64,000 nt of DNA from Trissonchulus latispiculum (Eukaryota; Nematoda; Enoplea; Enoplida; Ironidae). The position numbers and the translations under genes were made by a program. Below are positions 40,868-63,310 of this stretch, piece by piece. Within the stretch, counting starts at the first letter, position 1. Every line of letters begins with the position of its first letter. Location: the NCBI GenBank assembly GCA_030248195.1, contig JASAND010012613.1, positions 1 through 64,000 on the forward strand, given 5' to 3'. A model generated the notes under the pieces. It made no database searches, was not told the DNA's origin, and was given only the letters and a program-made list of their open reading frames with translations.

Positions 40868-43350
<2,483 letters not shown>

Positions 43351-50414: not shown

Positions 50415-51053
50415 TTAACTTATTCGCATGTAGACATATTGCTGTTCACCGGGAAGAATTCCCTCCATTACTCTAAACTTATGATCCGCATTTGGTTTAA
50501 GGTTAAGGAACAGGTATCCGTAGGGCTTCTGCGTTGCCTATTCAAAGGCGGCAGGTAAACTTTTTGGTTTCCCAGGAAATATTTGTTCGCTAAGGCGACC
50601 AATCATCTGTGCGTCACGCGGATTAGGAAAGATGACTAGGTAGTGTGCATTACGAGTAATTGTGCGTATGTACTTTGAGTCGTGGTACAAATTCTGCAGT
50701 AATAGAATGACGGAGCAGTTGGCATGTCTACACTTTGTTATCAACTGTGGCAACCGTTTGTCATTTTCCAGGTCTACCATGAGGTCATCCAGTACAATTA
50801 GAGTACTGCCTTCACCACTGGCAATATCTAGTAGATTTTCGTCGGGCACTCCTTGCTTAAGTTCTAGATTAGGTACGGTGCTGAGTAGGTCTTTGTAGGT
50901 GTCCTGGAACATAGAGTATAGATTGATAACTTTATCAAAAGGTTTGCCATGTAATTCCTCCTGATGGATAATCAGTTGCTTAGTAAAGTATGTCTTGCCG
51001 GAGCCAGTTGCTCCTGAGACTACCATAGTATAGGGTGCTTGCAATATCATCAT
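50415..51053 (-). CDS. FtsK/HerA-A32-type genome-packaging ATPase
   Basis: Pumps viral DNA into capsids using ATP. Walker A is GATGSGKT (residues 14-21), Walker B is LIVLDDLM (85-92), followed by a sensor-type stretch CSVILLLQNLYHDSKYIRTI and a basic RNAHYLVIFPNPRDA, all in the order seen in Polinton ATPases. A TAG (50538-50540) follows AAFE, but the frame stays open beyond it and gives the usual C-terminus (KPYGYLFLNLKP ... PGEQQYVYMRI) to TAA at 50415. One nonsense mutation is therefore the only damage. It starts 22 bp after the capsid-like gene. Family call firm. Confidence 0.85.
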
Positions 51054-53202: not shown

Positions 53203-53751
53203 CTATTTATTATTCATCCATAGGATGTCCTCGTTTCTTATTAATTGCACCACATGTGCTACCGTATCACACATGTCACTTTCACTAGTCGGCCCGGTTA
53301 CTACTATTTTTCCCGTGTGGCATAATACGCAAACAGTTGGATGATTTATGGTAACTCTGAGACCTGCAAAATCAGGCTCTAGCAAAATCCTGTATGTTTC
53401 GCGCAGTTTTGTTGCAATTTTGTTTACGTTTAAACGATGTTGCATATCAATCACCGCTACTACATTACGCACGCGAACACAGTCTTTGAGTGTCAAATTC
53501 AAGGTTTTTGCGCATAAATTTGTGGCTTCCTTTGCATGTTCTTGAGATTTCGCACCTGCAATTGATACATTTCCATTTCCAAAAATAAGACAGGTAACAC
53601 TTTTCTCCCACACCTGTTGCCTCCAAACCAATCCCTGAAATTTTTGAGGTTCACACTGTGCATACTGTAAATTATTTTCATATATTTCTTGTAGGTTAAG
53701 TTTCTCCTTAAAACCATTAGTGGCAATAACGTCAGTAATAACCCACTGCAT
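53203..53751 (-). CDS. TATA-binding-protein-like protein, 182 aa, intact
   Basis: TBP bends promoter DNA and nucleates transcription. The protein consists of two direct repeats and almost nothing else. Repeat 1 (about 2-82) has EPQKFQGLVWRQQ, SVTCLIFGNGNVSIAGAKS and a helix EHAKEATNLCAK. Repeat 2 (about 91-175) has VRVRNVVAVIDMQHRLNVNK, EPDFAGLRVTINHPTVCVLC and HTGKIVVTGPTSESD. These match the saddle repeats of TBP, including the F-x-G-L-x-x-R and IFxSGKxVxTGAKS signatures. Of the four DNA-intercalating Phe positions, three are kept (F38, F57, F128) and the fourth is Cys144. The gene heads the packaging/structural block directly behind a 1.2-kb repeat spacer, and the next gene begins 1 bp after its stop. 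Role in element transcription is inferred. Host capture or an ancient viral TBP are both possible. Confidence 0.8.
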   Translation of the reverse strand: MQWVITDVIATNGFKEKLNLQEIYENNLQYAQCEPQKFQGLVWRQQVWEKSVTCLIFGNGNVSIAGAKSQEHAKEATNLCAKTLNLTLKDCVRVRNVVAVIDMQHRLNVNKIATKLRETYRILLEPDFAGLRVTINHPTVCVLCHTGKIVVTGPTSESDMCDTVAHVVQLIRNEDILWMNNK

Positions 53752-54946: not shown

Positions 54947-56060
54947 CTACAAAGTTTGCTGCCTACAGAAAGAAGCGGCGGCAAACCATTCATGCCAATT
55001 TAGCTTGTATAAGTTTTGCTCTGGTTCCCACGTGCTTGCTGACTCAGGGTAGCCTAACCACTTGACGAGCACTTCCTTGCCACGACGCTTTAGGATACGC
55101 TCTACCTTATAGGTTGTATCTTGTCCCTTAATACCTTTCTGTAGTTCTGGCTCATAAAAGGTACACACTATCTCCCCTCCCGTGCTATCCTTAATCTTAT
55201 ACACAGGATGTCTCCTACGAATGACCTGTGAAATTGCGAATACCTCTTCGGTCCAGTTTGGTTTATAACCTTTATTGAAAGCTGCTAGTTCTTTCTGAAT
55301 CCTTACTAAATCTCCCACCTTAAACTTTGGTTTCACTGATAATAAAGGATATGTTTTTTTGGGTATAGATTGGCCTTTACTAGGTGTTCGTTGTCCTTAT
55401 TCACATCAACGGGTCTAAACTTAGTGCTGCTATGCTTGGTATGATTGTATGCAGTGACAATATCTGTAGTGCATATACATATCGCCAGGGAGTTTTGTGA
55501 GTAAGATATCTATATACTTTAGGGTTCTAATGAAACGTTCTGCCACGCTAGCCTTTGTCTGCTGACTTTGTGCCGTATAGCAGTTCATTCGCTTTTCCTT
55601 ACAGTAACTTTCAAATAAAGTATTAACAAATTCCTTTCCTTTGTCCGACATTAAATTTTTAGGATGTCGCTCGTCTGTTATTTTTTAAGAGCACTTAGAA
55701 GTTCTAAGTTAGAACAGTTTCTGCCTTCTTATCCTTTACCGGCTGCGCCCGCGCCATCTTTGAGTATCCGTCAATTACAACAAAGATATACCTATAGCCA
55801 TCGTTATAGTTTGCTAGGGCACTCATGCCCGCCACATCCATCTGCCATAGGTCATCAATTCCAAACATTATGTAGCGATTTCTCTTAAACTTTCTCCTAG
55901 TTGCGGCATGCAAGCTATAGGGATCCTGCGTTTGAAGCCATTCCTTAACTACCTTTCTACTTTCACCTACCTTACGCGCTTCTCTATATAGACTGTTAAT
56001 TTAGCCTAAGCTGCCTACTCTACCTGCAGTATAGTAAATACTTTCTAGCTTAGCCTCCAT
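54947..56060 (-). pseudogene. retroviral-type integrase with chromodomain (Polinton c-integrase)
   Basis: Inserts element DNA into the host genome. The start MEAKLESIYYTAG overlaps the previous stop (TGATG). A helical lead with KEWLQTQDPYSLHAATRRKF follows. The DDE core then appears: LWQMDVAGMSALANYNDGYR (first Asp), LMSDKGKEFVNTLF (second Asp) and ASVAERFIRTLK (Glu). The tail has VTAYNHTKHSSTKFRPVDV, an SH3-like VKPKFKVGDLVRIQKEL, and a chromodomain YKVERILKRRGKEVLVKWLG + STWEPEQNL, which could steer integration to modified chromatin. An in-frame TAA near the start and about three one-base shifts (near 55690, 55460, and an A7 run near 55352) break it. Family call firm. Confidence 0.85.
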
Positions 56061-56431
56061 CACGATCCGTCCGATCGGGCCATCATTTGGATAAATTCTT
56101 CACTGCCCGTGTGCCAAATGGCGAACACCGGCTGCATGAACCTGGCACGCCAACTGATCAGCTACTGCTCGCGACTGACGTTGCCCACCGCCTGCCGTAG
56201 TTCCAGGTCGTTGTTAGTTTTGGGCCATAGGTTGATGATGCGATATTCGGGGGTGAAGAGGGGGATGCGATGACCGCTTTCCCTCTGTTGTAACTGATTC
56301 AACATGTGGAAGGCCCTCCGCCGTAAGTCTTCCTGATAAAAAAAGTTGTCAATTGTATCTTCCACACCGTCTCTACCCGGAACAGGGCAGTGAATATCTT
56401 CGGCGTTAGGTGTATATGTAAAGTTTGCCAT
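56060..56431 (-). pseudogene. hypothetical accessory protein with one in-frame stop
   Basis: Starts MANFTYTPNAEDIHCPVPGR, then EDLRRRAFHMLNQLQQRESG and EYRIINLWPKTNNDLELRQA. TAG at 56162-56164 is followed in frame by 33 more sensible codons (RARFMQPVFAIWHTGSEEFI) to TGA at 56060, which overlaps the integrase ATG. No family is recognised, and there is no signal peptide. The start codon lies 16 nt downstream of a hammerhead-ribozyme-like leader, as for the CARD gene. Confidence 0.45.
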
Positions 56432-56447
56432 AGTATCTAATCACATA

Positions 56448-56544
56448 AAGTTGTTTCGATTCCTGCCAGAGAATCTCATCGGGAGGTTTTACTAGATTTG
56501 TTACCAGGCAGGATAACAAATCTAGTGGGCTACCCAGACAACTT
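56448..56544 (-). ncRNA. hammerhead ribozyme-like motif, copy 1 (type III)
   Basis: On the minus strand: stem III AAGTTGT/ACAACTT (7 perfect pairs), cleavage triplet GTC, a long stem I hairpin capped by ACTAGATTTGTTA/TAACAAATCTAGT (13 perfect pairs), core CCGATGA (consensus CTGATGA, so one change U4 to C), stem II GATTC/GAATC with loop TCTGGCAG, and core GAAA. Sense orientation to the genes. It ends 16 nt before the ATG at 56431. The topology is complete; activity of this exact sequence is doubtful because of the core change. Confidence 0.75.
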
Positions 56545-56570
56545 TTCTCTATTCTTTACGTCATCAACAT

Positions 56571-57053
56571 TTACACATCAAGTATACATACTGGAATTGT
56601 CCAAACGTTTACTCCAAGAGTTCCTTGCCACCATGTCAATAATAAATCGTTGTCAGTTCTGAATGGATTCTTGCCCATGAAGTCTCTGACGGCACCCTGC
56701 CTTGTGCCAAAATGTCCACTTGAATCAGTACGACCGTCATGGGTGATAAGTGTCCAGGTGTAGTATTTTCTGGTGTAGTCATCTCCGGGAGGTTGTAGTA
56801 GGTAGCTGAGGTTGATCTGTCTAGTGTAGCGGAGACAGACTGTGAACAGTTTCAGTTTGTCCGAGCCGCCACGACTGATAATGTCCAGGATTTCGATCCG
56901 GGAATCAACGTTGGATCGCATTGATCGTAGTCGGTCCACTTGATATTGGCTCAATCGGCTCATTTTCACCATCTCCGGGATAATCGTTTCCACTCTCAAT
57001 TCATCAATGAAGGCAGGTGAGTTACGAGTAAGAATGTCATAATAAGTTTCCAT
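56571..57053 (-). CDS. CARD-domain protein, 160 aa
   Basis: CARDs are death-fold adaptor domains that assemble caspase or innate-immune signalling complexes. Residues about 8-85 fit: ILTRNSPAFIDELRVETIIP, EMVKMSRLSQYQVDRLRSM, and DSRIEILDIISRGGSDKLKL + FTVCLRYTRQ. This is the typical six-helix spacing with LLDIL.RRG...F...L at helix 5. The C-terminal half (DDYTRKYYTWTLITHDGR to WTIPVCILDV) is not recognised. The frame is intact. It lies between two hammerhead-like leaders, and its ATG is 16 nt after copy 2. In an element with capsid genes, a stand-alone CARD protein would plausibly act as a decoy or inhibitor of host cell-death signalling. That role is inference; the fold call is good. Confidence 0.65.
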   Translation of the reverse strand: METYYDILTRNSPAFIDELRVETIIPEMVKMSRLSQYQVDRLRSMRSNVDSRIEILDIISRGGSDKLKLFTVCLRYTRQINLSYLLQPPGDDYTRKYYTWTLITHDGRTDSSGHFGTRQGAVRDFMGKNPFRTDNDLLLTWWQGTLGVNVWTIPVCILDV

Positions 57054-57069
57054 ATCGAAAACACGAATA

Positions 57070-57160
57070 AATTGTTTCGATTCCTGCCAAAGAATCTCAT
57101 CAGGACGCTTTCAGTAATATTTCCAAATGAAAATATTACTGTGGCTACCCCTACTGTTTA
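57070..57160 (-). ncRNA. hammerhead ribozyme-like motif, copy 2 (type III)
   Basis: Consensus core CTGATGAG...GAAA with stem II GATTC/GAATC (loop TTTGGCAG), and a stem I hairpin capped by CAGTAATATTT/AAATATTACTG (11 perfect pairs). That hairpin has a different sequence from copy 1 but the same position, so the structure is conserved while the sequence changed. Cleavage triplet GTA. Stem III (AACAGT/ACAATT) has two central mismatches. It ends 16 nt before the CARD-gene ATG (57053), exactly as copy 1 does for its gene. Confidence 0.7.
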
Positions 57161-57340
57161 CAGGCCCTTGTGATGGTTGTTTTTTATTCGCATTTTTTCA
57201 ATTTTTGCATTGTCTTTTTTATATATGTATTTTCACTTTTTCACCAAGTCTATTTTTTCACTGCTTCACTGTTTTTCACCACCATCACTGTTTTTTAAAT
57301 TAGGGCCGCATATAATACACAATGTACAATAACAATGATA
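57161..57340. other. T/C-rich spacer
   Basis: Pyrimidine-rich sequence (TTTTTCACT strings) between the unknown duplicated gene and hammerhead copy 2. No gene. Confidence 0.4.
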
Positions 57341-58012
57341 TCAAATGTCTACAAGGTAGGGATATAAAAATGCGGTGGCCGGCATCTGTTGTCCGTAAAC
57401 ATCGTAATAATCCTTAAAGTCTCTTCTCTCGTCTCGAAATTCCGACATAAATGTCGCTTCTTTCAGTTCATAGGTGGGATAGGACCCCAGGTTTTTACAT
57501 GCATCTTCAAAACAGGTGTTGGTCAGGCACCAACTGGAATGACCGTTGCGCTCTTCTTTGGTAATGCGCTCAATTTCAACCAACAGCTTTTGAGCCATTG
57601 ATATACCAGTGGCGCCCATTTTTCTAATATATAGTTTGGTTCGGACGGATTCTTCTAAATGGTCAAGATCCACCGCCATCGCTTTCTCTAGGGATTCAAG
57701 GAATGCGGTTCGATATGGGACGTTGTTAATGTCCGTTTCTAAAATCATTTTCCCCACCAATTTTGAGGTGTGCCCAATGTTTTCATGTCTTTTCTCGACA
57801 AGACATCTCTCCAGGACTTCGTTTGGCAGGTCCTTCCGTGGCATGGTGAATCGCTTCTGCTCACAGGCGAACTCTTCCTAGTAACGTTTCTCCACCTCCT
57901 GCATATCGTAGTTCTTAACCTCACAGAGTTTGAGTAGTAGCTGTTGTCTGAATTCGCTGTCGTGGATATGTATCATCTTATCCGCAATCATAACCGCAAT
58001 AATAGAATTCAT
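57341..58012 (-). pseudogene. duplicated accessory gene, copy 1, one in-frame stop
   Basis: About 223 codons from MNSIIAVMIADKMIHIHDSE, with a TAG (57878-57880) after EVEKRY and an otherwise open frame. Key stretches: PRKDLPNEVLERCLVEKR, ENIGHTSKLVGKMILETDI, EIERITKEERNGHSSWCL and FMSEFRDERRDFKDYYDVY. Its paralogue lies just upstream (58362-59142) and shares EKR.EN.G.TSKLV.KM, ERNG...WCL and F..EF.D.R.D. Mostly helical, no signal peptide. The family is unknown to me. Copy 2 reads Ile where this one has the stop, so the stop is a recent lesion. A hammerhead-like leader precedes it by 69 nt, with an acceptor-like TTTTGTGTTTTAG between. Confidence 0.5.
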
Positions 58013-58081
58013 ACTGCAACTTCTAAAACACAAAAGTATATTAGCATTTGACCGTCTTGGTGTGTTGGTTGCTACTGATGT

Positions 58082-58178
58082 ATCCTGTTTCGTCCTCGCC
58101 ACAGGACTAATCAGGCAGCAAAGTCATCGAATGGTTAACTTGTAACCAGCTGCACGCGTTGACTTGGCAGGTGCGACA
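58082..58178 (-). ncRNA. hammerhead ribozyme-like motif, copy 3 (type III)
   Basis: Stem III CCTGT/ACAGG, triplet GTC, stem I with AAGTCA/TGACTT and an inner hairpin GGTTA/TAACC, core CTGATTA (consensus CTGATGA, so the catalytic G8 position is U), stem II GTCC/GGAC with loop TGTGGCGA, then GAAA. Sense to the genes. The G8 change predicts loss of activity. Confidence 0.75.
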
Positions 58179-58361
58179 GGACACACATTTTGTATTTATT
58201 TTTTTCTCAAGTCTTTCTTTTTTGAATCTTGTGACGCCCAATTTTTTGTGTGACCTTCCTGGAGATACACTAGTGCTTGATTTAAAATATTCAGCATTTT
58301 GTCTTATTTGTGCACTGTGTATTTCCATCAATGTTACAATATCAATATAAACAATATACAA

Positions 58362-59142
58362 TCAATAAACAACATCAATATCATGTACAAGTCGCACACT
58401 ATACCCCAATGCCATGTTAACTTCGGACCAAGGATTTAGGATGTCACCGAATAGTTTATCACGTCCTCTTTGCGCTCTCATATCCAATAGCTCGTGGTAA
58501 TCCCCTCTCGTATCCTGAAATTCCACCATAAATGTAGCCTTTTCCAGTTCGTAGCAAGGTTAAGTTCCCAAATTCGTGCAAGCTTCAGCGAAGCAAGTGT
58601 CTGTAGGCACCAGCCCTGTTCTCCATTACGCTCTTCCCTAACAATACCAACAATTTCATGGAGTACTTTGGTGGCTGCACGCATACCATCGACACCAATA
58701 GGGATACTGCGTCGATACAGTTCTCGCCGAACCTCCTCTTCAAACTCATCAACATTAACGTCCAATCCCTTTCGCAGTGCTGGTACAAATGGGTAATAGT
58801 CGGGCTTATAGCAATAGGGATTTTGAATGTCTGTCTGAAAGGCCATCTTTCTCACCAACTTCGACGTGCGACCAACGTTTTCTGGGCGTTTTTCCAGTAG
58901 GCATCTGTCCAAAGTCTCTTTCGGGATGTCTTTTCTGGGTTTCCTGGCCTTTGTAATTTCACACCAAACCTCTTCAATCCATCTTTTCTACAACGCATGT
59001 CGATCGTAGCCCATAAGTTCCGCCGTTCTCAGTAATAAAATATTTTGAAATATTGGGACGAATCATTATGCTCGAATCCTGGCATCTTATCAACCAAATT
59101 TGCAACCGTTCAATTATCCTTGGGAATAGGAAGTGTTGTCAT
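58362..59142 (-). pseudogene. duplicated accessory gene, copy 2, heavily broken
   Basis: A paralogue of 57341-58012. From ATG 59142, an early stop, then NLVDKMPGFEHNDSSQ (compare MIADKMIHIHDSEF), a frame change, ILLLRTAELMGYDRHAL, TAG, KRWIEEVWCEITKARKPRKD, IPKETLDRCLLEKRPENVGR and TSKLVRKM. Near the C-terminus it has IVREERNGEQGWCLQ and, after another shift, FMVEFQDTRGDYHELLDMRA down to TGA at 58362. About 40 percent identity to copy 1 by eye, so the duplication is not recent. It sits 60 nt behind hammerhead copy 4. Confidence 0.5.
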
Positions 59143-59202
59143 AATGTCTGAGGCATAAAATAATAGTTATTATATTAGTTATAAATGTTTTCGCTGATGT
59201 AT

Positions 59203-59305
59203 CCTGTTTCGTCCTCGCCACAGGACTCACCAGGCACCAAAGTCATCGAATGAGAATGGTTAACTTGTAACCAGCTTCACGCGTTGACTTGTCAGGTGCG
59301 ACAGG
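59203..59305 (-). ncRNA. hammerhead ribozyme-like motif, copy 4 (type III)
   Basis: Stem III CCTGT/ACAGG, triplet GTC, stem I base GCACC/GGTGC, then AAGTCA/TGACTT and inner hairpin TGGTTA/TAACCA, core CTGGTGA (consensus CTGATGA, one change A6 to G), stem II GTCC/GGAC with loop TGTGGCGA, then GAAA. Very close to copy 3 in sequence, but with complementary differences in stem I. Sense to the genes. Confidence 0.8.
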
Positions 59306-59585
59306 TCACACGCATATCAAAATTATTGGGCTCTAGTGGTTATTTTTTTCACTATTTCTTTATATTTTCTCAAAAATTTTTTCATATTTTTCAATTTTTT
59401 TATATTTTTAATTCTTGTAAGTGTTTGCCCATATGTACAATTCGTGTCCCTCCTAGAGATACACTTGTGCTTCATGTGTTTTTCTAACGGTTACTAATGA
59501 GTCTTGAATATTTCGATTGTTGCACTGTGTATCTCTGTATATCAGGTTACTACAAATACACGTTACTACAAACAGACACAAAATG

Positions 59586-62557
59586 TCAAATGAGGAGGGG
59601 CTTGGTTGATAGATGGTCGGGTTGGACTTGTCGTTTGATATAAAGTTAGGATAGGGCGTCTCGTTGCTGGTGGTACTGCAGGATTTGGGAATGCTTTACC
59701 ATAAATCCACGGTTAGTGCCTCCTTGGGCTTGACGGTTGTCAAGGAGGACTTCTGTAAACATGTCTTTGGTCACAGTGTTGGTGGCTCTGGAGAGGCCCT
59801 TGGTGGAAAGTTTGGTATCGGAACCATCATTCCGCCGACCCATGTAAGTTTTAGAGTTTAGGGCAATCATTCCATCTCCATGCCACTCTTGCTTAAAAAG
59901 TCCGGGGGTCTGTTGATCGTGTTCGGTTAGGGCTAGGTAGTCGCCCTTCCATTCTTCGTAAAAGTCTCTGGATTCGGGTGGTATGGCATCTTCCAGGGAA
60001 TCATGGGCAAGGGCAAATATAAATTGTCTGTGTCCATTTCCATCATTTGCCAATCTTCCCGTCGTAAACAATGATATAGGAAATCGTACAAATCCAAAAT
60101 TTTCTCCTTGGCATACTGGTAAACAAAAAACCCTATAATTGAGGGGAGTCCACATTTGATCTTTTTTTGTGCATTGAAACTTCACTCACACTGTCCACAA
60201 TTTCTTCGAGGGACTGGAATAGGGAGTCGTTGACGTATTTGGTGAGTTTCTCGTCCAGGTTATATACAATGTAGCGGTGTTTCACCAGGTCAGTGAGGGT
60301 TCTTCCGTAGTAGGAATTTCCCTGTAGTTTAAATATTTCTCCCTTGATCCTGAAGGCTGGATCACGGTCGGCTTGTCTTCGATGTTCGGCCACTTCTTCC
60401 ATCAGGTGTTGAAACGGAGTGGCTTCCTTGAATTCCACTGCTCCGTATACCCTGGTAACAATCAGGCCTCCTTTGATGTATCGTTTCAGGAGGGAGGTGC
60501 CTATAATATTTTCTGGGCATGGTAACTGCCAATCAGGCATCGCCTTGGCTGCTTCATTTGCCCTGTCTCCTTGCCATACACCTCCATGGTTTCTCCGATG
60601 TCGTTCTTGGTAACCTCCGCGTTCTTAAATATCGGAGGCATCTCGGAGTACATTTCCAGGAGGTTCCGATCGTACCAGGGCACTTGGATGTCCACCTCCA
60701 TAATCCCGAAAAACATTCCATTTTCCACGCATTCCAGTATGCTGTTTCCGTCCAAGTGGTGTTCACAATTGGCCCACATCTTCTTTGTAGGCTCTTGATA
60801 GGTGATGTTTGCAAAAGTTACACTCCGATTCTTCGATGGAGGTTACTCCACAGCCAGCCAAGGTATCAGTAATGCCTCCGTATTTCTCTGCCATACATTC
60901 ATATGCCTTTTGACTGATTTCGTCCAGGTACTGATACATTTGTATGGCAATTTCTTCAGGGTCGCCGGTGGAAACAAAACACACGGCTTCCTCGTATCCG
61001 GGGATGTTTGAGGCCAGGCTGACGCTGGCCGGCTCCAGGCTGTTCGTGAACAGGAGTTTGCTATTGCCGGGTTCCTTTGCCACGAACAAGGCTTCAAAGT
61101 CGTAGGTCACCCGGTACGGGTAATAGTCGTCATCGGGAAGGTTGAGGCCTTCCTTCCGTAGTTCCTGATGGATGGTCTTGGGAATTCCAAATCCTCCTCC
61201 AGGATAAATGTATTCTGTTCGTGCTCCGGTGCAATTTTCAATGTGTCGTTTGGTATTTCCATGGTGGTTGAACAGTCGATCACACTTTCCACGCCTCCAT
61301 GACTTGGTGTATAGTTCAAGGTCCGTGATGAGGCTGAAATGGTTCTCGAACAGGTTCACGTTTACAGTTATAGGATGGTTGTATTCCGACAACCGTACCA
61401 CCTGGGCAAATGGCTCTCTCCGTTCCGGTTGTTCGTCATCTGCTTCCTCGTCTTCCGCTGCCTCGTCCATTGGTTGGTCTTCTATTGGCTGCCCCTCATC
61501 GTCAACACCTGCCTCTTCCAGTGCAAAAGGATTTTGACGAGGAGGAGGTTCATCTGTCATCGGGATGTCATCTTCTTCCTCTGGCTCCGGTTCCTCAAGG
61601 ACTGCCAAAGGAATGATATTAGGTTCGTACACGGCGTTCATTAGTTGTTGTAGGGTTCCTTGGGGAGGCTGCTCGTCCTTTTCAATTTTCATTGGCTCCT
61701 CCTCCTCTTCTGGAACACGCATTTCGTATACATTGATGTTGACCTGGAAGCATCGTGCCAGTTCCTTCAATTGTTTCATGGTGACTCCTTTGAAAGGTTT
61801 CGTGCTGTCGCGGCCGGTCTGGCTGCTTTGTGTCAGGTCTGGTATCGAAGCCGCGGATGGCATGACTCCTCTTGATGTATGCAGGAAGGTTTACCGGCAC
61901 GCCAATGGGATGTTCGGGCATTCTGTACAGGGTCACCAAAAAGTTAGTCAGTCGCTCCACGACGTATTGGGTGGTTGGTCGTTGTTGGAGAGCCCATTCC
62001 ATAGGATCCTGGGCCTCCGTGTCTGCAATGAATCTTTCAAGTTTTTCTCGACATGAAATGAGGTGGGGTCGGTCAAAAAGGGTAGTGTTTGAAGTTCATA
62101 TCCTTTAGGCGGAAATTATACTCGCTGAGGCATTTGGGGAAAACGCGCTGGTGGGTCCGTATCCGCTTCCAGTGCTTCTGGTACATATCGTTCAGGTAAA
62201 ACGTAGGGTCGTTGGACGGGTCAACTGGGTCGGGGAGTAGGAGATCTGTGTTGTCTTCCGGTGGTCCATGCTTTTCCATTGAATGTCTCTTCAGGTTGGA
62301 TTTTCGACTGAATGGCATACCGCAATGGTGGCACTTGACTCTCTTTCCACTGTGTGATTCCTTGACGTGTCGTCGAAGGATTGCGGCGGTGACGAAGGAT
62401 CGACCACAAGTTTGGAATTGAGTGGTCACAGGGGTCACTGGGGCGGAGTGCTTCTGGCGAATATGGCGGGATAAGTTCTGAGGGATGGCAAAGGACGACG
62501 GGCAGTGAGGACATGAATATTGTTCCTCGTCACTGTCGTCATAGGGGACGAGTCGTC
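59586..62557 (-). pseudogene. family B (protein-primed type) DNA polymerase with N-terminal C2H2 fingers
   Basis: Replicates the element's linear DNA. The N-terminus has two good C2H2 fingers (CPHCPSSFAIPQNLSRHIRQ + KH; KCHHCGMPFSRKSNLKRHS + MEKH) around a degenerate one (CGRSFVTAAILRRHVKESH). A long acidic linker (about 61700-61440) and an exonuclease start YRVTYDFEALF (Exo I) follow. Next come MEVDIQVP, SEMPPIFKNAEVTKNDIGE, KLQGNSYYGRTLTDLVKHR (motif B), EMDTDNLY (motif C), TPGLFKQEWHGDGMIALNSK and, past a TAA at 59646, VQPDHLSTKPLLI to TGA at 59586. Exo II, Exo III and motif A were not found between 60900 and 60780, where the frame jumps, so an internal deletion is likely. At least four further frame shifts are present. 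The start is uncertain: an acceptor-like TTGTTTCACGTAACAG stands at 62558. Family call firm. Confidence 0.85.
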
Positions 62558-63310
62558 TGTTACGTGAAACAACAAAAAGTAAATAATAAAACTTGTAACC
62601 ATCCTCGCAGATCCACCATCTTTGCTCGTCAATCTACCTTTATCACATCAGTGTGAAAACGCTCACCGGGTCTGAAGGCTTCCTGATCTGATCTAAACTA
62701 GAACGAAGTTGTTATATGCAACTGTTAATGAAACTTGAACATTCAAAAGTCAAATGGTGCAAAGCCCGCATACTGAAAACCTCCATTAAACTAAAAACCA
62801 GGTTTGAAACAATATTCATGTAAAATCAACAAATTGACTTACTCATTTGGTTTGCCTGATTGGGATCCATGATAATATATGATCCAAAAACAACAGTAAA
62901 CAGCATTAATATATTTATCTGCAGCATTAAAACAAACAGGTTTCATAATTCCCTTTAATTGTCACAGTTTAATTCAAACACTCTTGTCAAATAAATTGTT
63001 TTAAACCGTTGAATACCTAAATAACTACAAATGGTCAACAAGTTATGCATTTTACTTACCAACAATCGTCTTCTTTTGAAGGGAGTCTTTCTGAAACAGG
63101 CAAAAAATTAAATTATACAACCATGTTATGCCATTCTCAAGTCGTTAGGTTATTATTTTCAAAATCATAATCTACATTTTCGGAAACATTCACACATAAT
63201 GAATCAGTTTACTACAAAATTGATTACTACAAGCAAATCACAACACTTACCTCCAATAAAACTGACAAATTGCTTCAAAAATCTGTCTTCAATGTCTTCT
63301 TTCCTGAAAT
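62558..63310 (-). other. cluster of splice-like sites upstream of the polymerase
   Basis: On the minus strand several short segments are framed by good splice signals. 63305-63249: TTTATTTCAG| ... GGAG|GTAAGTG, open in one frame (KEDIEDRFLKQFVSFIG). 63090-63060: TGTTTCAG| ... GTTG|GTAAGT. A donor GTAAGT is at about 62851, a donor ACCCG|GTGAGC at about 62667, and an acceptor at 62558 leads into the polymerase fingers. They may be 5' exons of the polymerase transcript or of a host gene. The phases do not all fit, so no model is proposed. Confidence 0.3.

Follow-up and report, generated by a model that had tools for sequence, protein, structure and literature searches.

The nematode Trissonchulus latispiculum carries a decayed Polinton-type element in a 64,000-nucleotide (nt) stretch of contig JASAND010012613.1 (hereafter the window, meaning the whole stretch analysed). 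Polintons are virus-like elements with a presumed kinship to the large DNA viruses of eukaryotes. The element lies on the minus strand and comprises a DNA polymerase B (PolB) region, genes B, A, C and D, an integrase gene, a TATA-binding-protein (TBP)-like gene and an A32-type packaging ATPase gene. Four segments between its genes have the layout of type III hammerhead ribozymes. To our knowledge, most animal hammerheads have no known job. The four segments, in window coordinates, are as follows.

56447–56545, minus strand: hammerhead copy 1, between genes C and D; core at 56476–56482 with one change; predicted cut at 56537/56536
57068–57160, minus strand: hammerhead copy 2, between genes A and C; core at 57097–57103 intact, stem III mismatched; predicted cut at 57152/57151
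58078–58186, minus strand: hammerhead copy 3, between genes B and A; core at 58108–58114 with one change; predicted cut at 58175/58174
59197–59311, minus strand: hammerhead copy 4, between the PolB region and gene B; core at 59227–59233 with one change; predicted cut at 59300/59299

In all four, a stem III strand, GTC or GTA, a stem I hairpin, a CTGATGA-like core, stem II, GAAA and the second stem III strand follow one another. A descriptor allowing at most one core mismatch and requiring a stem II of at least 4 base pairs (bp) and at least 6 of 8 pairs in stem III matched exactly these four segments in the window; 60 dinucleotide-preserving shuffles gave a mean of 0.32 matches and a maximum of 2. 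This confirmed the placement, strand and order of parts given in an earlier note on this DNA. The note had also described unrelated yet paired stem I caps in copies 1 and 2, and the distal stem I arms of these copies are indeed unrelated above a common base, each pairing as one unbroken helix. Copies 3 and 4 each precede one of the paralogues A and B at a similar place. The pieces of them that align are about 95% identical, and the two therefore represent one event, so that the four copies amount to about two independent cases. Stem I of copy 3 is shorter, with one mismatch at its base. The minimum-energy fold of copy 3 is exactly the hammerhead, that of copy 1 has a three-way junction in which the stem I base is shifted in register, and other folds are predicted for copies 2 and 4. 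Every copy carries a lesion, as had been noted: a core change in copies 1, 3 and 4, and stem III mismatches in copy 2. In addition, a predicted pseudoknot (described below) is mismatched in copies 1 and 4, weakening the predicted contact. Judged by sequence, all four are type III hammerhead ribozymes in a state of decay.

The genes of the element are arranged around these copies as follows.

59646–62633, minus strand: DNA polymerase B region, in several frames; its own Pfam match is weak (E 0.047, one piece)
58478–59142, minus strand: gene B, frame broken, limits approximate; ATG about 54 nt past copy 4
57341–58012, minus strand: gene A, function unassigned, with an internal stop by our reading; ATG about 65 nt past copy 3
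56571–57053, minus strand: gene C, 160 amino acids (aa), CARD-like; ATG about 14 nt past copy 2
56085–56431, minus strand: gene D, interrupted and shortened, lower limit approximate; ATG at 56431, about 15 nt past copy 1
54947–56061, minus strand: integrase gene, broken, upper limit approximate; chromodomain within 54947–55396
53203–53751, minus strand: TATA-binding-protein-like gene (E 6e-29)
50538–51053, minus strand: A32-type packaging ATPase gene (E 5e-11)

Relatives of the element were sought in the window's own assembly (733.8 Mb, 21,732 contigs), whose contigs are given here as C-numbers. In C2564, the gene at the place of the PolB region (locus L076, 15–2156) matches DNA_pol_B_2 (E 4.1e-8), an integrase gene (L076, 5929–6987) has both rve and chromodomain matches, and the counterpart of gene D is an open frame of 175 aa. 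The CARD match of gene C lies below the Pfam cut-off in the window (E 0.0014) and above it in the C2564 relative (L076, 4778–5260; E 2.9e-7). Gene A has an open frame in C9213 and C2564, and by our reading gene B is a diverged paralogue of gene A. The gene set of Polintons/Mavericks and adintoviruses is known to comprise an rve integrase, PolB, an A32-type ATPase and a capsid gene. Of this set and its associates, we found A32, chromodomain and TBP matches in the window, PolB and rve plus chromodomain in C2564, and rve, a double-jelly-roll-like match and A32 in C1651. The earlier claim of type III hammerheads in a decayed Polinton-type element is supported. Among the open-access papers listed by our literature searches, none reports hammerheads in Polintons, Mavericks or adintoviruses as judged by title and abstract opening, most subscription papers and all preprints lying outside these searches.

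We then compared the same gene junctions among relatives. A search with copy 1 gave 11 matches in the genome, of which the six long non-self ones were examined. Intact cores were present at both the copy-1 and the copy-2 positions in C10480, C9213, C2564 and C20559, and C2564 and C9213 had an intact-core ribozyme at all four junctions (PolB|B, B|A, A|C and C|D), with an altered loop II in the C2564 ribozyme at PolB|B; the comparison with intact relatives proposed in the earlier note was therefore positive. The C8692 match is 99% identical and carries the same core change in copy 1, and the copy-2 core of this contig is kept with a damaged stem I. At the copy-1 position of C19286, a ribozyme was not recognisable. 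Copy 3 had 32 genome matches, counting itself and copy 4. We followed up short stretches around 20 of them, one of which overlapped an earlier locus, leaving 19; a ribozyme was found in 14 of these, 13 of them with an intact core. In alignments of six and five sequences around copies 1 and 2, with the near-identical pair of window and C8692 left out, identity was 0.72 in the upstream spacer and 0.84–1.00 in the ribozyme parts.

In several copies (L075, L076 and L079; frames of 126 to 262 aa), the core AUG shares its reading frame with the gene that follows, and in others it does not. A general role as start codon was rejected, since such an open frame occurs in only some copies, all of them before genes C, D and A.

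The observation extends well beyond the four copies of the earlier note to a genome-wide family. A pattern combining the core with the shared loop II (CTGATGA, T.TGGCRR, GAAAC) had 538 matches in the genome (271 and 267 per strand), and the reversed pattern had 0 and 0. We read 58 of the matches. The full type III geometry, together with GCC at positions 1.7–1.9 opposite the loop II GGC, was present in 51 of these 58, and in none of 2,900 shuffled flanks, which points to a predicted pseudoknot between loops I and II formed by a GCC(A)/UGGC contact at one fixed register. Most of the 30 loci cut out from the pattern search were compact, with a stem I of 16–20 nt. Among 62 parsed ribozymes, the core was intact in 57, and the triplets were GUA in 33 and GUC in 29. 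This parsed set missed window copy 2 and held L061 in a wrong register; the L072 ribozyme was left out of it, and of the junction survey, because by our reading its stem II is mismatched. In the 52 distinct ribozymes, 772 of 832 stem cells paired (92.8%), compared with a mean of 70.9% and a maximum of 74.4% after column shuffling, a control that overstates independence because the ribozymes are related to one another and pairing guided the choice of register. Changes on both sides were seen at 13 of the 16 pair positions, and stem III was open.

Alternatively, the motifs might work at the DNA level or as simple hairpins, such as transcription terminators or protein-binding hairpins, and look like hammerheads without cleaving. 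The stem I hairpins of the window type, long and well paired, would suit such a role. This explanation, however, fails to account for the kept unpaired core, GAAA, NUH triplet and loop contact while the stem sequences change, and we regard it as very unlikely. By their core, pairing and loop contact, the motifs are genuine type III hammerheads of a pseudoknotted subclass, present in at least two Polinton types of this genome and predicted to cleave.

At the Rfam gathering thresholds, no match was obtained in the window, in 11 phage-type loci (described below) or in 20 loci of the same genome, and at E ≤ 10 the window gave copy 2 alone, misaligned, at 17.5 bits. The Rfam check proposed earlier is to be read with caution. 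Below threshold, Hammerhead_3 (RF00008) matched 6 of 10 relative loci, at 32.4–39.2 bits (best E 3.6e-5). The motifs share with this family the core, the three-way junction and the open stem III, and differ from it by GUA besides GUC, by the predicted GCC/GGC loop–loop pseudoknot and, in the window type, by a very long stem I. The RF00008 gathering score of 48.5 bits is a curated cut-off, not a chemical feature. Silence at these cut-offs is not disproof, because they also miss intact relatives and phage loci with evident hammerheads. The cut-offs appear to miss the pseudoknotted subclass, so that more members may hide in other genomes.

Compact ribozymes occur in loci of a second Polinton type, exemplified by C1651, in which integrase (rve), TBP, NADAR and innexin matches are above the Pfam cut-offs, and double-jelly-roll and A32 matches below them. 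Within C1651, L071 (1624–3658) encodes a protein with zinc finger and NADAR (E 1.3e-36) and an innexin-like protein (E 8.6e-19). We surveyed the gene context of 31 ribozymes at 26 compact-type loci, recognising genes with queries that came from the same kind of loci and consisted of Polinton genes only. An upstream gene was recognised for 19 of the 31, on the same strand in all 19 cases, and the distance from its stop codon to the ribozyme was 15–172 nt in 16 cases and 287, 689 and 1122 nt in the remaining three. These upstream genes are mostly PolB-like or TBP genes; the PolB-like label rests on a match to the polymerase of C2564 (23%; E 3.4e-12), as neither of the two such proteins tested matched Pfam by itself. 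By these gene matches, the commonest feature of the ribozymes is a sense-strand position 3' of a gene. In 23 compact copies whose flanks are distinct and of sufficient length, A made up 72% of the 15 nt directly preceding stem III, and A[AT]TAAA occurred within 77 nt upstream of 14 and downstream of 2.

On the downstream side, a recognised gene lay within 300 nt of 2 of the 31 ribozymes (NADAR|ribozyme|A32, in L054 and L063) and of none of the other 29. The earlier note had proposed the hammerheads as gene leaders. This fits the four copies of the window, which lie between genes, and does not hold in general: in loci of the second type, those 29 lack a recognised gene within that distance. A ribozyme acting on the gene that follows would, by self-cleavage in the 5' leader, remove the cap and set the 5' end of the downstream accessory mRNA. 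Every window copy stands about 14–65 nt before an ATG, the NADAR|ribozyme|A32 loci are arranged likewise, and conservation among relatives is high in the 3' leaders of copy 1 (0.95) and copy 2 (0.88). Against this stand the 29 ribozymes just mentioned and the ribozymes of C1651 and C213, which face into the putative terminal inverted repeat, and we consider an action on the following gene unlikely.

Among the first 100 listed matches, 31 neighbour pairs on one contig comprised 19 outward, 0 inward and 12 same-direction pairs. The element in C1651 bears a single outward-pointing ribozyme at either end, situated 7 nt inside the inner border of its inverted repeat, and C213 has outward ribozymes at the inner repeat edge, the right-hand one 2 nt from it. 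These arrangements come from an arm-against-arm comparison of five contigs (C1651, C213, C1982, C763 and C145), of which C763 and C145 are large palindromes without a visible repeat edge. In C145 (28000–34000; L074), we also observed an inverted repeat unit without recognised Polinton genes, bearing two outward hammerhead pattern matches per arm about 560 nt apart; it is perhaps a non-autonomous derivative.

Two ribozymes in the same direction could instead release the gene between them as a linear RNA, which the host RtcB ligase would close into a circular, cap-free mRNA. RNAs with 5'-OH and cyclic-phosphate ends are circularised by RtcB, and genes B, A and C each lie between two same-strand ribozymes in the window, C2564 and C9213. 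Such a circle could not be released from C1651, with its single outward ribozyme per arm, and outward pairs, 19 of the 31, are the commonest arrangement; gene circles are accordingly quite improbable.

The position behind a gene on the sense strand, following an A-rich stretch in the compact copies, argues for 3'-end formation. We propose that the Polinton hammerheads probably act co-transcriptionally to form 3' ends and to split multi-gene transcripts, a model that draws on gene order and sequence. The ribozyme RNA would cut itself during transcription, and the upstream message would then end shortly after the A-rich tail that it encodes, with the 2',3'-cyclic phosphate that, together with a 5'-OH, is established for hammerhead products. 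Where a gene follows, as at the four window junctions and at NADAR|A32 in the second type, the cut would split a multi-gene transcript, and the following message would start at the stem I hairpin with a 5'-OH, and would have its ATG a few nt past the ribozyme or, for genes A and B, some tens. At the element ends, cutting would stop transcripts from extending into the putative terminal inverted repeat. It is possible, though we hold this more tentatively, that a hammerhead behind a transcription unit, cutting after the encoded A-rich tail, takes the place of cleavage and polyadenylation by the host, or supplements them, and allows several genes to be expressed from one promoter. If the model is correct, it would describe how a eukaryotic virus-like lineage can form the 3' ends of its mRNAs and express several genes. 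Since the matches read are mostly intact and lie behind a same-strand gene where one is recognised, the function is testable from transcript ends.

Several observations weigh against these interpretations. As to the ribozymes themselves, the hammerhead was the minimum-energy fold in 25 of 53 distinct RNAs, folded without the pseudoknot; 5 of the 19 short regions matching copy 3 gave no ribozyme; every Rfam score was below the gathering value (best 39.2 bits), and 4 of the 10 relative loci had no hammerhead match. As to 3'-end formation, 12 of the 31 compact-locus ribozymes had no recognised upstream gene in a survey whose queries came from the same kind of loci, and the 3' leaders of copies 1 and 2 are conserved about as well as the ribozyme, which would also fit a leader role. 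Among 19 long between-gene copies, the AATAAA-like signal was less pronounced, occurring upstream of 7 and downstream of 1, and the enrichment in A was less clearly marked; 3'-end formation is therefore best argued for the compact copies. The AATAAA signal is also compatible with standard polyadenylation, in which case the ribozyme would serve another purpose. Finally, the inverted repeat of C1982 (77%) runs inward from the ribozyme, unlike those of C1651 and C213.

Hammerheads also occur in Penelope-like elements, Terminons and retrozymes, which are retroelements with the ribozyme in terminal repeats or at the 3' end (PMC6431247, PMC6155905); these too are mobile elements, but without DNA-virus genes. 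The Polinton copies might be those of a hammerhead retroelement, retrozyme or Penelope-like, that hitch-hiked into Polintons and has no role there. The copies are numerous in the genome, and such retroelements are a known source of hammerheads (PMC6155905). The unit that recurs between the two Polinton types, however, is a ribozyme on the coding strand of Polinton genes, its geometry is type III rather than the type I or minimal form of retrozymes and Penelope-like elements, the recognised neighbours are Polinton genes (the only genes used as queries), and the pairs among the first 100 listed matches include 19 outward and 0 inward; hitch-hiking is the least probable of the explanations considered, and a highly improbable one.

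Mammalian Clec2 genes carry a discontinuous type III-like hammerhead in the 3' untranslated region (UTR), for which a role at the polyadenylation site has been suggested (PMC6155905). It resembles the Polinton copies in type and 3' UTR position, and differs in belonging to host genes outside mobile DNA elements and in a stem I of 150–1500 nt (PMC6155905). Hammerhead arrays in prophages flank single genes or short gene blocks, with pseudoknots common, and a role in dividing long transcripts into mRNAs the length of one gene has been suggested for them (Perreault et al. 2011, PMC3088659). The Polinton copies are similar in that several hammerheads surround genes, and the GCCA contact is common to them and to phage-type contigs that we found in IMG/VR. 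There, the core-loop pattern had 39 matches on 30 contigs. Strict type I geometry was present in 11 of the 39 (six contigs) and in 0 of 780 shuffled flanks; the other matches are due to chance or fail the strict stem test. GCCA stood exactly at positions 1.7–1.10 in 11 of the 11, although the contact was not part of the search pattern; these 11 represent about three cases, because nine share nearly the same stem I. Unlike these type I copies, the ribozymes described here are type III, lie in a eukaryotic virus-like element and, in the compact form, follow A-rich tracts. If the proposed function is correct, it would parallel the phage hammerhead arrays, with the same loop contact in both.

Further resemblances of these elements to Polintons/Mavericks and adintoviruses are the rve integrase, PolB, the A32-type ATPase and a weak double-jelly-roll capsid match; inverted repeats were seen between the arms of C1651 and C213. 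The best 20 of 39 database relatives of the window's A32 ATPase are 49–61% identical to it. No capsid match was found among the window pieces tested, and protein searches with genes A and C gave no match at E ≤ 0.001. The TBP protein, the A32 alignment, the exact copy-3-like core and two type III pseudoknot patterns found no relative among viral contigs, where the pattern scans have a short reach because they rest on a few exact patterns; the A32 alignment likewise found none among bacterial and archaeal genomes.

Some minor features were also noted. Among the phage-type loci, L005, L017, L018 and L023 each have 2–5 near-identical, type I-like cores, of which 2, 3, 1 and 3, respectively, pass the strict type I geometry, and by eye these loci have an extra U after the core. 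L017 gave no Rfam hammerhead even at E ≤ 10, and a twister-P1 match of 44.5 bits, below the cut-off. L024 (9257–11534) has three Hammerhead_II matches below the Rfam cut-off (35.5, 33.0 and 26.0 bits) on a contig that also carries a type I copy. In the window, a 32-nt repeat (84%) occurs at 58250–58281 and 59444–59475, upstream of copies 3 and 4, and may be an element of a promoter or of a 3' UTR. The interval 41412–41942 contains a (CA/TG)n microsatellite of about 500 bp.

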